From NCBI RefSeq assembly GCF_900110885.1, contig NZ_FOFJ01000013.1, positions 1-64,000 on the forward strand: a stretch of 64,000 nucleotides of DNA, in the 5' to 3' direction. Positions 4,444 to 63,690 of the stretch are shown here, piece by piece. This DNA is from Azotobacter beijerinckii. GTDB lineage: Bacteria > Pseudomonadota > Gammaproteobacteria > Pseudomonadales > Pseudomonadaceae. A program made the position numbers and the translations under genes. The stretch's first letter is position 1. Every line of letters begins with the position of its first letter. Below the pieces are notes generated by a model, which was given only the letters and a program-made list of their open reading frames with translations, ran no database searches and had not been told where the DNA came from.

Positions 4444-4515
4444 ACGGTGTCCGCAATTCGGGTCAAGGCCGCCCGGCAGCCGGGCGGCAATCGGAAAATC
4501 CACGGAGCGCTCCGC

Positions 4516-4911
4516 ATGATCAACGTCCTCACCCCCTATCAACTGCTCGGCGGCGAAGACGGCGTACGCCGGCTGTGCAACGCCTTCTACGACAACATGG
4601 AACGCCTGCCCGAGGCGCAGACTATCCGCCGCATGCATGGCGCGGACATCGGGCCGGTGCGCGAGAAACTCTTCGAGTACCTTTCCGGCTGGCTCGGCGG
4701 CCCCAAGCTGTACCTGGAGAAATACGGCACCGTGGCCATGGGCCCGGCGCACCGCCCCTTCGCCATCGGCCCGAAGGAGCGCGACCAGTGGATGCTGTGC
4801 CTGAACAAGGCGCTGGACGACATTGGCGCCAGCGAGACCGCCAAGGGACTGATCAAGGCGCCGATCTACGCCTTCGCCGACCACCTGCGCAACCGCGCGA
4901 CCTCGGACTGA
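4516..4911 (+). CDS. Group II truncated haemoglobin (trHb2)
   Basis: A 131-residue 2-on-2 haemoglobin. The ATG at 4516 is preceded by GGAG; the upstream in-frame GTG at 4447 has no family similarity. Group II features are visible: LLGGEDGVRRLCNAFYD at the A/B helices, FEYLSGWLGGP, proximal His in PAHRPFAIG, and the group-typical Trp in ERDQWMLCL. Family members bind haem and handle O2, NO or peroxide. In an aerobic diazotroph an oxygen or NO role is plausible but inferred. It follows the AAA ATPase gene closely. Confidence 0.88.
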   Translation: MINVLTPYQLLGGEDGVRRLCNAFYDNMERLPEAQTIRRMHGADIGPVREKLFEYLSGWLGGPKLYLEKYGTVAMGPAHRPFAIGPKERDQWMLCLNKALDDIGASETAKGLIKAPIYAFADHLRNRATSD

Positions 4912-5134
4912 ACCCTCCCCGCACAACCCGACCCCGGCGCAGCACAGCGCCACCGCCGGCCGCTCCCCGGGATCGGCAGATTTCCGCCGATGGCGGCAGG
5001 CACGCGACGCCCGGCAGGGGGCACGAAGGCAGCGGGAGAGAATCGAGCGGAGGGGAACAGCAGAGGCGCCCGGCCAGCGGCCGGAGCGACGCGTCCGCTC
5101 CGCCCTCGCCGGGCGGAACGGACGGTCGGGACGA

Positions 5135-6505
5135 TCAGCGATCGTGGTGCAGGTAGGCTGCCTGCTTCGGCAGGCGCAGGCTGAAGAGGAAGGCAATCGC
5201 CAGCATGCCCGAGACGTACCAGTAGAAGGCTTCCTCGTGGCCGATGGACTTCAGGCCCAGCGCCACGTATTCGGCGGTGCCGCCGAACATCGCGTTGGCG
5301 ATGGCGTAGGACAGACCGACGCCCAGGGCACGCACCTCCGGCGGAAACATCTCGGCCTTCACGATGCCACCGATCGAGGTGTAGAAGCTGATGATGGCCA
5401 TGCCCAGGATGATCAACAGGCCGGCCATGACAGGGCTCCCTGCGGTCTTCAGGGTCATCAGGATCGGCAGGGTGCAAAGCGCACCCAGGGAGCTGAACCA
5501 GAGCATCGAGGCACGCCGGCCGATCCGGTCGGACAGGGAGCCGAACACTGGCTGCATCAGCATGTAGCAGAACAGCGCGAAGGTCATGATGCCGCTGGCG
5601 GTCTTGGCGTCCATGCCCACCGAGTTGACCAAGTACTTCTGCATGTAGGTGGTGAAGGTGTAGAACATCAGCGAGCCGCCGGCGGTGTAGCCGAGCACGG
5701 TGATGAAGGCAGCCTTGTGGTGCTTGAACAGGCCGGCCATGCTGCCCGCCTCCTTGCTCGCACGGGTCTCCGCCGTGGTGGTTTCCTCCAGGGAACGGCG
5801 CAGCAGCAGGGCAATCACCGCAGCAATGGCGCCGATCACGAACGGAATGCGCCAACCCCAAGCCTTCAGCTCGTCGGTGCTGAGCAGCTGCTGCAGAATC
5901 ACCACCACCAGCACCGCGAGCAACTGGCCACCGATCAGGGTGACGTACTGGAACGAGGAGTAGAAGCCGCGCTTACCCTTGAGCGCCACCTCGCTCATGT
6001 AGGTGGCGGTGGTGCCGTACTCACCGCCGACCGAGAGCCCCTGGAACAGGCGGCAGAGCAGCAGCAGGGCCGGCGCCGCGACGCCGATGCTCTCGTAGGT
6101 CGGCAGGACGGCGATGGCTAAGGAGCCGGCGCACATCATCAGCACCGAGATCAGCATCGAGGTCTTGCGGCCGTGCTTGTCGGCGATCCGGCCGAACAGC
6201 CAGCCGCCGATCGGGCGCATCAGGAAGCCGGCGGCGAATACCCCGGCGGTGTTGAGCAGTTGGACGGTGGGATCGGCCGCCGGGAAGAAGGCCGGGGCAA
6301 AGTAGATGGCACAGAAGGCGTAGACGTAGAAGTCGAACCACTCCACCAGGTTGCCGGACGAGGCACCGACGATGGCGAAGATCCGCTGGCGGCGCTCGGC
6401 GGCCGTGTACACGGACTCCTGGGCGGTCGTGGACGGGGTCTCGTCAGGGCGGTTGGCGGCAAGGTCCGCAGGGGCGCACAGCTCGGGGCTGTTAGGGCTT
6501 GTCAT
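5135..6505 (-). CDS. kgtP: MHS-family 2-oxoglutarate/dicarboxylate permease (KgtP-like)
   Basis: A 456-residue MFS transporter of the metabolite:H+ symporter subfamily. Signatures are [14 protein letters not shown] at TM1, [18 protein letters not shown] in loop 2-3, [13 protein letters not shown] in TM4 and DRIGRR in the central repeat. Twelve hydrophobic segments are apparent. The start chosen is the ATG at 6505 with GGAG 8 bases upstream, not the earlier in-frame codon at 6547. A sigma-54 promoter and paired activator sites lie upstream. With the adjacent DctB/DctD-type genes this fits a 2-oxoglutarate (P. aeruginosa MifSR-PA5530 style) or C4-dicarboxylate uptake system. The exact substrate cannot be read from sequence. 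Confidence 0.85.
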
Positions 6506-6627
6506 TGTATTTCTCCGTTTCTTGTGGGCGTTCGGCCTGCGCGGCAACTGCCGCAGTTGGCAGAGGGCCGCTAGGCGCCGGAGCGGACAGTCGTCACACC
6601 GGGCACCAGAGCAACGAAGTATGCTTT

Positions 6628-6644
6628 AGCAGGATACAGGCCAA
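6628..6644 (-). promoter_or_regulatory. Sigma-54 (-24/-12) promoter of kgtP
   Basis: Read on the minus strand the site is TTGGCCTGTATCCTGCT. It has the invariant GG and GC separated by exactly 10 bases and agrees well with the consensus YTGGCACGrNNNTTGCW. It lies about 120 bases upstream of the kgtP ATG and points toward it. The presence of a sigma-54 activator gene next door and of palindromes at enhancer distance supports the call. Confidence 0.75.
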
Positions 6645-6695
6645 GGTGAAAGAAGGCTCTATCTTGCGGGTCTGCGCCCAAATATCAAACAGCCA

Positions 6696-6745
6696 TCGGC
6701 GGATTTCAGCCGATTTTTGAAGACTGGTCGGCAATAATCCGCCGA
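6696..6745. promoter_or_regulatory. Two tandem enhancer palindromes, TCGGC-N8-GCCGA
   Basis: Two 18-base palindromes with identical arms occupy 6696-6713 and 6728-6745. Their centres are 32 bases apart, about three helical turns, so they face the same side of the DNA. They lie roughly 85 and 120 bases upstream of the expected kgtP transcription start, the usual position for bacterial enhancer-binding protein sites. They also fall just after the stop codon of dctD. I infer they bind the DctD-type regulator encoded immediately upstream. Confidence 0.7.
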
Positions 6746-6750
6746 TACCA

Positions 6751-8085
6751 TCACTCCTCGCCGGCGGGGAGGAAGTCGCCGCGGCTCAGTCCGTGGCGCT
6801 GCATCTTCTCGTTGAGGGTGCGCCGCGGCAGCTGCAGCAGCGCCATGACCTCGGCGATGTTGCCGCGGCACTGCTGCAAGGCCTGGCGCAGGCACTGCGC
6901 CTCGAAGGCTTCCAACTGCTCCCCCAGCGATTGCGGCGCCGCCGCGGCGCCCGCCCCGCCGCCCAGGCCGAGGGCGTGGCGTTCGGCGGCGTTGGCCAGT
7001 TCGCGCACGTTGCCCGGCCAGTCGCGGGTCAGCAGCCCGGTCAGTTCTGTGGCGCCGAGCGGGCGCGCTTCGCGGCCATGGCGCTCGGCCGCGGCCTGGG
7101 CGAAGTGCTCGAACAGCAGGGGAATGTCCTCGCGCCGCTCGCGCAGCGGCGGAATGTGCAGCTCGGCGACGTTGAGGCGGTACAGGAGGTCCTCGCGAAA
7201 GCGCCCGGCGCGCACCTCGGCGACCAGGTCCGGCTTGACCGCGCCGATCACCCGCAGGTCGACCGCGATGCTGCGGTTGGAGCCGAGCCGCTCCAGGCTC
7301 TTTTCCTGCAACACGCGCAGCAGCTTGGCCTGCTGTGCCAGCGGCAGGCTCTCCACTTCGTCGAGGAACAGGGTGCCGCCGGCGGCGTGCTCGATCCGCC
7401 CGATGCGCTTGCCCTGGGCGCCGGTGAAGGCGCCGCTCTCGTGGCCGAACAGCTCGCTCTCGAACAGTTGCTCGGGGATCGCCGCGCAGTTGACCGCGAC
7501 GAAGGCTTTGTCGGCGCGCGGACCGAAAGCGTGCAGGCAACGCGCCACGCATTCCTTGCCGCTGCCGGTCTCGCCGCGGATCAGCACGCTCACCGAGGTC
7601 GGCGCCAGCTCGAGGATCTGCCGGCGCAACTCCTCCATCGCCCGCGACACGCCGAGCAGGCGACCCTCGATGCAGCCGCGCTGCGCCACCTGGCGGCGCA
7701 GCGCGCGGTTCTCGCAGACCAGCCGGCGCTTGTCCAGGGCGCGCTGCAGACTGCCGAGCAGGCGCTCGGGGGTGAAGGGCTTCTCGATGAAGTCGTAGGC
7801 CCCCTGCTGCAGCGCCGCCACCGCCATGGGCACGTCGCCGTGGCCGGTGACCATGATCACCGGCAGCTCGGCATCCAGCGCGCGGACGCGTTCGAGCAGG
7901 GCCAGGCCGTCCATGCCAGGCATCCGCACATCGCTGACCACCACCCCGGAAAAGTCGGCATCGAGCAACGCCAGCGCCTCCTCGGCACGGGCGCAGGTGC
8001 GCACCGAAAGGCCGGACAGCTCCAGCCACTGCTGCACCGCCTCGCGGATCGGCGCTTCGTCGTCGATGAAGAGAATCTGCTGCAT
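6751..8085 (-). CDS. dctD: Sigma-54-dependent response regulator, DctD/MifR type
   Basis: A 444-residue NtrC-family regulator. It has an N-terminal receiver with phospho-acceptor Asp52 (SDVRMPG) and Lys in the EKPF motif, an AAA+ domain with Walker A GETGSGKE, an intact GAFTGA loop and Walker B GGTLFLDE, and a C-terminal Fis-type helix-turn-helix (NIAEVMALLQLPRRTLNEKM). It starts one base after the dctB stop, with AGGAG inside the end of dctB, so the two are translationally coupled. Its probable target is the kgtP promoter directly downstream. DctD versus MifR cannot be separated by eye; both regulate dicarboxylate or 2-oxoglutarate transport. Confidence 0.85.
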   Translation of the reverse strand: MQQILFIDDEAPIREAVQQWLELSGLSVRTCARAEEALALLDADFSGVVVSDVRMPGMDGLALLERVRALDAELPVIMVTGHGDVPMAVAALQQGAYDFIEKPFTPERLLGSLQRALDKRRLVCENRALRRQVAQRGCIEGRLLGVSRAMEELRRQILELAPTSVSVLIRGETGSGKECVARCLHAFGPRADKAFVAVNCAAIPEQLFESELFGHESGAFTGAQGKRIGRIEHAAGGTLFLDEVESLPLAQQAKLLRVLQEKSLERLGSNRSIAVDLRVIGAVKPDLVAEVRAGRFREDLLYRLNVAELHIPPLRERREDIPLLFEHFAQAAAERHGREARPLGATELTGLLTRDWPGNVRELANAAERHALGLGGGAGAAAAPQSLGEQLEAFEAQCLRQALQQCRGNIAEVMALLQLPRRTLNEKMQRHGLSRGDFLPAGEE

Positions 8086-8086
8086 T

Positions 8087-9871
8087 TCACGGCTCCTGCG
8101 GACTGGGCTGCAGTGTATCCGGCGACGCCGCGGCCGGCAGCCGGAGGGTGAACTGCGCCCCGCCTTCGGCGTTATGCACCTCCAGCTGGCCGCCCGACTC
8201 GCGGACGATGCCGTAGGACACCGCGAGCCCGAGGCCGAGCCCCTCGCCCACCGGCTTGGTGGTGAAGAACGGCTCGAAGACCCGCGACAGGTGCTCGGGG
8301 GCGATGCCGCCGCCGCTGTCGGCGACGCTCAGCAGCCAATCGCCGCCGTCCCGGCGCAGCGCGATGCGCAGCTCGCGGCGCTGGCGCCCGGCCATGGCGT
8401 CCAGCGCGTTGTGCAGCAGGTTGACCAGCACCTGTTCGAGGCGGATCGCGTTACCCTCGACCCAGGCCAGCGGCTCGCGCCGGCGCAGCACCTGCACGGC
8501 GTCCTGGCGGATCCGCGCCTCGAGCAGGAGCAGCGCGTGGTCGACCACGGTATCCGGCTGCAGGCGCTCGCGCAGGCCGCTCGGGGTGTCGCGGGCGAAG
8601 GTCTTGAGGTGCCCGGTGAGCGCCGCCATGCGGGTGAGCAGGCCGTCGATGCGCGCCAGGCAGGTGCGCATCGCCGCCGAATCGTTCTTCGCCAGCAGCA
8701 GGCCGAGACTGCCGAGCTGCATGCGCATGGCGGTCAGCGGCTGGTTGATCTCGTGGGCCAGGGCCGCCGACATCTGCCCGAGGGCGGCCATCTTCGCCGC
8801 CTGCACCAGCTCGTCCTGGGCCTGGTGCAGCGCCGCGGTGCGCTCCTCGACCAACCGCTCCAGCTCGGCCCGGCGGCGCAGCAGCAGGCGGCGGTTCTTC
8901 TGCCGCTGGCCAAGGAACAGGAAGAGGAACGCCAGCGCCAGCCAGATGCCGGCCGCCGCCAGGGCATAGCCGCGCACCGCACCGCCTGGGACGCGCGCCT
9001 CGCGCAGCAGCTGCAGGGTCCAGCCCTCGTCGGGGAGTGACTGGCTCAGGCGCAGGTAGTCGCGCCGACCGTCCGGGCTATCGATGCGCAGCAGCTCGGC
9101 ACCGTCGTCGAGCTGTCGCAACGACTGCATCGCCAGCGGCTGCAGTTCGCGGACGCCATAGCGGCGGGCGTCGTCCAGATTGGCGCGCAGCTTCGCCGGC
9201 AGTCCCTGCAAAAGGCGGAAGCGCCAGGCCGGCCGGCTGGCAAGAATGACCACCTGATGCTGGTCGGTCACCAGCAGGGTACCCGGCTGCCCGGCCCAGT
9301 CACGCTGCAGGTCCTCCACCACCAGTTTGAGCACCAGCACGCCGAGGATGCGCTCATCGGCATCGCGCACCGCACGGGCAAGGAAGTAGCCGGGCACCCC
9401 AGTGGTCACGCCGACGCCGAAGTAGCGGGCACTGCCCTCGCGCAAGGCGCCCTGGAAATACGGGCGAAAGGCGTAGCTGCCGCCGACGAAGTTGCCCGGC
9501 TCCTGCCAGTTGCTGGCGGCGATAGTCCTGCCCTGCAGGTCGAGCAGAAAGATCACCCCGGCCCCCGCCTCCTGGTTGAGGCGCTGCAGGCGCCGGTTGA
9601 GTCGCTCGTGCGCCAGCGGATCGGCGCCCTCGCGTAGCAGCGCCTGGATCTCGGTGTCCAGGGCGAGGATCGCCGGCAACGCGCGAAAGCGCTCGACCAG
9701 GATGCGCAGCGACTGGGCATACAGCTCCAGCTGGCCGCGGGCCTCGATGGCGGTCTCGCTCCAGTGACGCCGCTCGGCATAGCGTCCGGCCAGCCAGACG
9801 CTGACCAACAGCCCGGCGAGGATCGTCAGAACCCCGAGCAGCACGCGCCGGCGGGCGGAGAGGAAAGGCAC
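8087..9871 (-). CDS. dctB: Membrane sensor histidine kinase, DctB/MifS type
   Basis: The GTG at 9871, five bases after the helicase stop with AGGG before it, gives 594 residues; earlier in-frame starts run into the helicase gene without family similarity. Order of parts: TM helix near residue 10-30, a periplasmic sensor region of about 250 residues with a PAS-like core (GVIFLLDLQGRTIAASNW, GSYAFRPYF), a second TM helix (GIWLALAFLFLFL), a coiled coil, the H-box LAHEINQP, then N, G1 and G2 boxes (NLLHNALDA, DSGGG, GLGLGLAV). YAFRPYF is typical of DctB-like sensors of carboxylates. Confidence 0.85.
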   Translation of the reverse strand: MPFLSARRRVLLGVLTILAGLLVSVWLAGRYAERRHWSETAIEARGQLELYAQSLRILVERFRALPAILALDTEIQALLREGADPLAHERLNRRLQRLNQEAGAGVIFLLDLQGRTIAASNWQEPGNFVGGSYAFRPYFQGALREGSARYFGVGVTTGVPGYFLARAVRDADERILGVLVLKLVVEDLQRDWAGQPGTLLVTDQHQVVILASRPAWRFRLLQGLPAKLRANLDDARRYGVRELQPLAMQSLRQLDDGAELLRIDSPDGRRDYLRLSQSLPDEGWTLQLLREARVPGGAVRGYALAAAGIWLALAFLFLFLGQRQKNRRLLLRRRAELERLVEERTAALHQAQDELVQAAKMAALGQMSAALAHEINQPLTAMRMQLGSLGLLLAKNDSAAMRTCLARIDGLLTRMAALTGHLKTFARDTPSGLRERLQPDTVVDHALLLLEARIRQDAVQVLRRREPLAWVEGNAIRLEQVLVNLLHNALDAMAGRQRRELRIALRRDGGDWLLSVADSGGGIAPEHLSRVFEPFFTTKPVGEGLGLGLAVSYGIVRESGGQLEVHNAEGGAQFTLRLPAAASPDTLQPSPQEP

Positions 9872-9875
9872 GGCC

Positions 9876-13940
<4,065 letters not shown>

Positions 13941-62904: not shown

Positions 62905-63690
62905 ATGACCGCGACGCCCTATGTGGCCCGGCAACCGGACGAGCGGGGCCTGATCCCGTATTCCGAAGCCGAGCACGCCGTCTGGCAGACGCTGATCGCA
63001 CGCCAATTGGCCGTGGTGGAGGGACGCGCCTGCCAGGAATACCTGGACGGCATCCAGCGGCTCGCCCTGCCGCACGAACGCATCCCCCAGCTCGGCGAGA
63101 TCAACCGCGTGCTCGAAGCCGCCACCGGCTGGCGGGTAGCGCGGGTGCCGGCGCTGATCCCCTTCCAGACCTTCTTCGAGCTGCTCGCCGACCGACAGTT
63201 TCCGGTGGCCACCTTCATCCGCCGGCCGGAGGAACTCGACTACCTGCAGGAGCCGGACATCTTCCACGAGCTGTTCGGCCACTGCCCCATGCTGACCGAC
63301 CCCTGGTTCGCCGCCTTCACCCACGCCTACGGCCGGCTGGGGCTGGCGGCCAGCAAGGAAGAGCGCGTCTACCTGGCGCGGCTCTACTGGATGACCGTGG
63401 AGTTCGGCCTGGTCGACACCCCGGCGGGCCGGCGCATCTACGGCGGCGGCATCCTCTCCTCGCCGAAGGAAACCCTCTACTGCCTGTCCGCGGCGCCGGA
63501 ACACCTGCCCTTCGACCCGATCGAGGCGATGCGCACGCCGTACCGCATCGACATCCTGCAGCCGCTCTACTTCGTGCTGCCGGACCTGCGGCGGCTGTTC
63601 GAGCTGGCCAACCAGGACATCATGGCGCTGGTGCGCCAAGCCATGCGTCTCGGCCTGCATCCGCCGAAGTTTCCGCCGAAGGCGGCCTGA
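62905..63690 (+). CDS. phhA: Phenylalanine 4-hydroxylase
   Basis: A 261-residue non-haem iron enzyme converting phenylalanine to tyrosine with tetrahydropterin. The iron ligands are visible in DIFHELFGHCPML (two His) and WMTVEFGLV (Glu); GGGILSSPKET lies in the active-site loop. AGGAGG stands seven bases before ATG. The 3' gene phhB recycles the pterin cofactor. A sigma-70 promoter must lie in the short gap with the phhR remnant. Confidence 0.95.
   Translation: MTATPYVARQPDERGLIPYSEAEHAVWQTLIARQLAVVEGRACQEYLDGIQRLALPHERIPQLGEINRVLEAATGWRVARVPALIPFQTFFELLADRQFPVATFIRRPEELDYLQEPDIFHELFGHCPMLTDPWFAAFTHAYGRLGLAASKEERVYLARLYWMTVEFGLVDTPAGRRIYGGGILSSPKETLYCLSAAPEHLPFDPIEAMRTPYRIDILQPLYFVLPDLRRLFELANQDIMALVRQAMRLGLHPPKFPPKAA

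Follow-up and report, generated by a model that had tools for sequence, protein, structure and literature searches.

A predicted sigma-54 enhancer and promoter module, of the MifR-controlled type, upstream of a KgtP-type permease gene in Azotobacter beijerinckii

The analyzed DNA, indicated in the following as the window, is a stretch of 64,000 nucleotides from Azotobacter beijerinckii (contig NZ_FOFJ01000013.1). On its minus strand, a SNF2-type helicase gene is followed by the genes for a MifS-type kinase (mifS) and a MifR-type regulator (mifR) and, after a gap of 245 bp, by the gene for a KgtP-type permease (kgtP). The features of the locus are collected in Table 1. In the kinase open reading frame, dCache_1 scores 44.5 bits, slightly under its cut-off of 45. 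The regulator is composed of a receiver domain, a sigma-54 AAA+ activation domain and a Fis-type helix-turn-helix; the intact GAFTGA loop, noted in an earlier description made from the sequence alone (the sequence-only reading), is present as FGHESGAFTGAQ. Permease and regulator share 89–94% identity with those of other Azotobacter genomes, and a single copy of rpoN is found in the window genome. Some features of the surroundings may be added: at 9840–9960 (minus strand), mifS abuts the SNF2-type gene; a truncated-type bacterial globin gene (Bac_globin, 4447–4911), adjoining an AAA+ ATPase gene, lies beside the locus in all four Azotobacter genomes; an ORF at the contig end (296–661) resembles, as judged by eye, the C-terminal part of an IS transposase.

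Table 1. Predicted features of the kgtP locus, in window coordinates
Feature	Position	Strand	Remarks
Operator A, promoter-distal, TCGGCGGATTATTGCCGA	6728..6745	-	centre about -119.5; kept in four Azotobacter genomes and in other genera
Operator B, promoter-proximal, TCGGCTGAAATCCGCCGA	6696..6713	-	centre about -87.5
Sigma-54 promoter element (-24/-12), TGGCCTGTATCCTGCT	6643-6628	-	70 bp from operator B
Predicted kgtP mRNA leader, 112 nt	6506..6617	-	+1 set by convention
KgtP-type MFS permease, predicted target gene	5135..6505	-	NF007710, 723 bits (cut-off 550); MFS_1
MifR-type response regulator and sigma-54 activator	6751..8085	-	GAFTGA intact; Fis-type HTH; MifR clade 100/99
MifS/DctB-type sensor kinase ORF	8087..9958	-	dCache-like region, HisKA, HATPase; start codon uncertain
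Third operator, TCGGCAGATTTCCGCCGA	4973..4990	.	no promoter; not mentioned in the sequence-only reading

Two exact TCGGC-N8-GCCGA palindromes had been described about 85 and 120 bases upstream of the predicted start of a GG-N10-GC promoter. Both are found, at 6696–6713 and 6728–6745, 32 bp apart from start to start, with centres at -87.5 and -119.5; the promoter corresponds to TGGCCTGTATCCTGCT (minus strand, 6643–6628), and its distance to the operators is conserved in other genera. Taking +1 near 6617, according to the usual convention for -24/-12 promoters, and the kgtP ATG at 6505, the leader is 112 nt long. The arms, correct in their outer part, had been drawn too short, since the inner GGA/TCC was missed: the operator is TCGGCGGA-NN-TCCGCCGA. 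Operator A is degenerate, with 3 mismatches to this full form. The -24/-12 element features both TGGC and TGC, in a position relative to the operators that is fixed in other genera; at -12 the window promoter reads CTGCT, not TTGCW. When 21 modules from several genera are aligned, the invariant core consists of GC-N8-GC in each site, within TCGGCGGA-NN-TCCGCCGA, and of the promoter TGGC and TGC; as the aligned sites were picked by score, conservation within them is inflated, while the constancy of the distances is not affected. A search of the mifR-kgtP intergenic region for a sigma-70 promoter was negative. A further conserved, AAnCCC-like block is seen in the aligned modules about 30 bp upstream of -24 (alignment columns 88–93; roughly 6657–6670 in the window, minus strand).

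The same layout, A-32-B-70-(-24/-12), is shared by all four Azotobacter kgtP promoters and is widely present in the Pseudomonas family. In the genera compared, the sites are paired in tandem and helically phased, 32 bp apart, with a further 70 or 59 bp to the promoter. Across genomes, the distance from A to B is 31–33 bp, and that from B to the promoter is mostly 70 bp, and 59 bp in Stutzerimonas-like genomes (a genus label given by inference), the difference between the two values being one helical turn; one genome (G013) fits poorly, as its nearest promoter match is 135 bp away. By a sequence-only covariance model, the module is matched at E <= 0.001 in 105 of 148 family genomes and in 16 of 19 genera, a count that takes in weak DctD-type and reverse-strand matches; matches outside the family are few. 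The best 29 module loci beyond the window genome all precede either a C5-dicarboxylate permease or a TAXI gene/TAXI-TRAP operon: the transporter is of the PA5530 type in 23 loci and of the KgtP type in 3 (Azotobacter), while a TAXI gene follows in the remaining 3. mifR lies directly upstream in 25 of the 29. In the genus matching published PA5530 primers, the module precedes the permease in the three sampled loci (L202, L204, L206), and mifR is beside the permease in none of them.

The adjoining activator had been attributed to a DctD/MifR type, an attribution that is supported and may be narrowed. A tree of 34 relatives features three clades; that of the window protein, supported at 100/99, is neither the DctD nor the AauR clade, and all of its 16 MifR-clade members carry the recognition helix PRRTLNEKM. 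The second clade, with helix RKTLHDKLRKHGL, is DctD-like, while the third, with AKTTLFDKVKKYGL, is probably AauR. Published mifR primers fit the MifR-clade genes with 0–2 mismatches. Judged by its sequence, the window regulator belongs to the MifR clade. For PA5511 an HT-SELEX motif has been published, whose predicted sites are all intergenic (PMC8041468).

In P. aeruginosa, MifSR is required for the expression of PA5530, and growth on 2-oxoglutarate needs RpoN, a need bypassed by PA5530 expression (PMC4482717). The PA5530 and mifS promoters share a motif, GATCGGCGGATt/gTCC, whose role "remains to be elucidated" (PMC4482717); this motif is the half-site found in the Azotobacter module. The two systems are alike in the orthologous regulator clade, the sigma-54 promoter and the C5-dicarboxylate permease as target. 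They differ in that the P. aeruginosa permease is of the PA5530 type and is located away from mifR, whereas the Azotobacter one is of the KgtP type and adjoins it; moreover, P. aeruginosa mifS has its own motif-bearing promoter, for which there is no room in the window, where mifS directly follows the SNF2-type gene.

Region 6628–6745 is accordingly read, with a probability of roughly 0.88, as the enhancer and promoter of kgtP, switched through sigma-54 by the MifS/MifR-type pair. The reading is directly based on the sequence elements, their uniqueness, the conservation of their rigid spacing, the gene identities and the clade to which the regulator belongs. Speaking against it are the CTGCT at -12, the degeneracy of operator A, the inflation of conservation by picking sites on score, and the paralogous DctD, whose half-sites are closely related and equally spaced. 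The kinase would sense external 2-oxoglutarate, or a different C5-dicarboxylate, and phosphorylate the regulator; regulator dimers would occupy A and B, which lie on the same face of the helix (32 bp being about three turns), and nucleate an AAA+ hexamer. With the DNA that separates B from the promoter looped out, the hexamer would reach the polymerase, where the GAFTGA loops would remodel sigma-54 polymerase at -24/-12 and turn the permease on. For this organism, the ligand, the looping, phosphorylation, the binding of A and B and the dependence on RpoN are all inferred, the last three by extension from P. aeruginosa (PMC4482717). The switch is of a known kind: the locus provides a new, well-defined example of it, the mechanism itself not being new.

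The best surviving alternative, although improbable, is that A and B are real enhancers used mainly by the paralogous DctD, or by both regulators, so that kgtP would also answer C4-dicarboxylates. A DctD-clade gene is present in the window genome, and the DctB/DctD system of C4-dicarboxylate transport, whose regulator forms a sister clade, is indeed similar: half-site GGCGGA is common to MifR-type and DctD-type sites, and in other genera a comparable pair with 32-bp spacing (CTGGCGGAAGCTCGCCAG, CTGGCGGCTTTCCGCCAT) comes after the gene of the DctD-clade regulator, ahead of a sigma-54 promoter. The two systems differ, however, in target genes, in recognition helix (PRRTLNEKM vs RKTLHDKL) and in the flanks of the half-site (TC-GGCGGA vs CT-GGCGGA), and it is mifR that adjoins the large majority of the best loci (25/29). 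As to the DctD-clade loci themselves, paired related sites 32 bp apart are located downstream of the gene both in other genera (L216, L227, L211) and in Azotobacter (L208, L209, L220, L221). The three loci from other genera also have a sigma-54 promoter; those of Azotobacter have kept GGCGGA-type sites and feature no -24/-12 element.

Two further systems may be compared. AauR, like the window regulator, is a DctD-family activator, acting with RpoN on a transporter operon; it differs in its operator, TTCGG-N4-CCGAA (cited in PMC7962211), and in belonging to a separate clade. KguS/KguR-c5038 of uropathogenic E. coli is also a two-component system responsive to 2-oxoglutarate, with inverted repeats for the regulator and a sigma-54 promoter, but its target gene is another one, and kgtP of E. 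coli is not sigma-54 dependent (PMC5318444).

It is very improbable that the palindromes are repeat elements, or RNA hairpins that terminate mifR or an antisense transcript. Site B does read ATCGGC-N8-GCCGAT on the plus strand and is followed by TTTTT; yet the A. vinelandii site has no T run after it, and terminator prediction is negative in the region. Covariation is no higher than in shuffles (score 0.220 vs 0.220), pairing at the second position of each arm is lost in 11 of the 21 sequences, and this view would not account for the rigid promoter distances. An intrinsic terminator or RNA hairpin was therefore rejected, given the lack of covariation above shuffles and of a predicted terminator.

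Chance was evaluated by counts and scores. The TCGGC-N8-GCCGA pattern occurs four times in the window (0.27 expected from shuffles) and 88 times in the whole 4.94-Mb genome, where its reversed control gives 23; a single site therefore means little. GG-N10-GC occurs 1585 times in the window, and is by itself worthless as evidence for a promoter; TGGC-N8-TGCW occurs 22 times. Only the fact that other species keep its distance to the operators makes the window promoter credible. A scan of the genome for further palindrome pairs, suggested in the sequence-only reading, found the 32-bp pair once with 0 mismatches, the runner-up, with 3 mismatches, being at control level; full operators with at most one mismatch are found at only two genomic sites, operator B and 4973–4990, both at the kgtP locus. 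By a weight matrix trained exclusively on other genera, in which the spacings were set to 32 and 70, the module scores 46.5 bits; the second-best position in the window reaches 4.3, when the reverse reading of these palindromic sites themselves (22.3) is set aside. When spacing was left free, the best pair was again at 32 bp, in the window as in the three remaining kgtP promoters of Azotobacter, and none of 1000 shuffles of the window's region (single-base, not dinucleotide) reached its score. No further full module is found in the window genome: the next match to the model scores 19.3 bits, vs 62.8 at the kgtP locus, a model whose E-value is not independent, since the window module was included in its training, while the out-of-genus matrix is. 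The view that GC-rich palindromes, common in the genome, lie by accident next to a promoter match may be given practically no weight, being already refuted by position and spacing conserved in other genera.

The permease predicted to be driven by the module is not of the usual type. In other genomes, the gene after mifR is as a rule that of a PA5530-type permease or a TAXI gene. What the module precedes in Azotobacter and P. insulae (L032) is a KgtP-type permease, whose identity is about 59% to the PA5530 type and about 80% to those KgtP genes of other Pseudomonas that have no module. As most KgtP-class genes of other Pseudomonas lack a module upstream, it is the mifR locus, and not the KgtP class, to which the module belongs. 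At least one genome (G010) has both types, which are therefore paralogues; a separate PA5530-type gene is absent from the window genome. The KgtP-type permease of Azotobacter occupies the place of its relatives' PA5530-type gene, under what is predicted to be the same A-B-promoter switch.

Another transporter is found at the locus in two sister Azotobacter genomes, where genes for a TAXI solute-binding protein and for a fused TRAP permease (TIGR02122, TIGR02123) are located between kgtP and the globin gene. They have an A-B-promoter module of their own, with distances of 32 and 70 bp in one genome and slightly off in the other. In the window genome and in A. vinelandii these genes are absent from this position, and elsewhere in the window genome only distant matches to TAXI genes are found. 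The DNA around 4973–4990 bears no recognizable homology to the sister TAXI promoters. Since the TAXI-TRAP genes are kept in two sister species and missing in the window genome, the third operator is best read as a remnant, probably of a lost TAXI-TRAP operon; it may also be a working remote site.

Taken across the family, the conserved unit seems, on balance, to be the switch and not the gene under its control. A cassette of rigid A-32-B-70-promoter geometry would have carried a payload varied across PA5530-type MFS, KgtP-type MFS and TAXI-TRAP transporters; in the window, one operator would have outlived a lost TRAP operon. The location of TAXI-TRAP transporters behind the switch suggests C5-dicarboxylate uptake; if the reading is true, TAXI-TRAP would be a MifR-controlled C5-dicarboxylate uptake system. 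The P. aeruginosa motif of unexplained role (PMC4482717) would be resolved into an operator of defined sequence, TCGGCGGA-NN-TCCGCCGA, arranged in pairs with a spacing of 32 bp, about 70 bp upstream of a sigma-54 promoter, and operator and geometry together would predict MifR targets across the Pseudomonas family.

Two more palindromes are found in the window. The fourth TCGGC-N8-GCCGA occurrence, at 63650, scores less than 10 bits with the out-of-genus matrix, which is background level. CAGGCGGAAATCCGCCTG, at 10806–10823 within the SNF2-type gene, is perfectly palindromic, contains the operator core and scores 16.2 bits with the same matrix, probably by chance.
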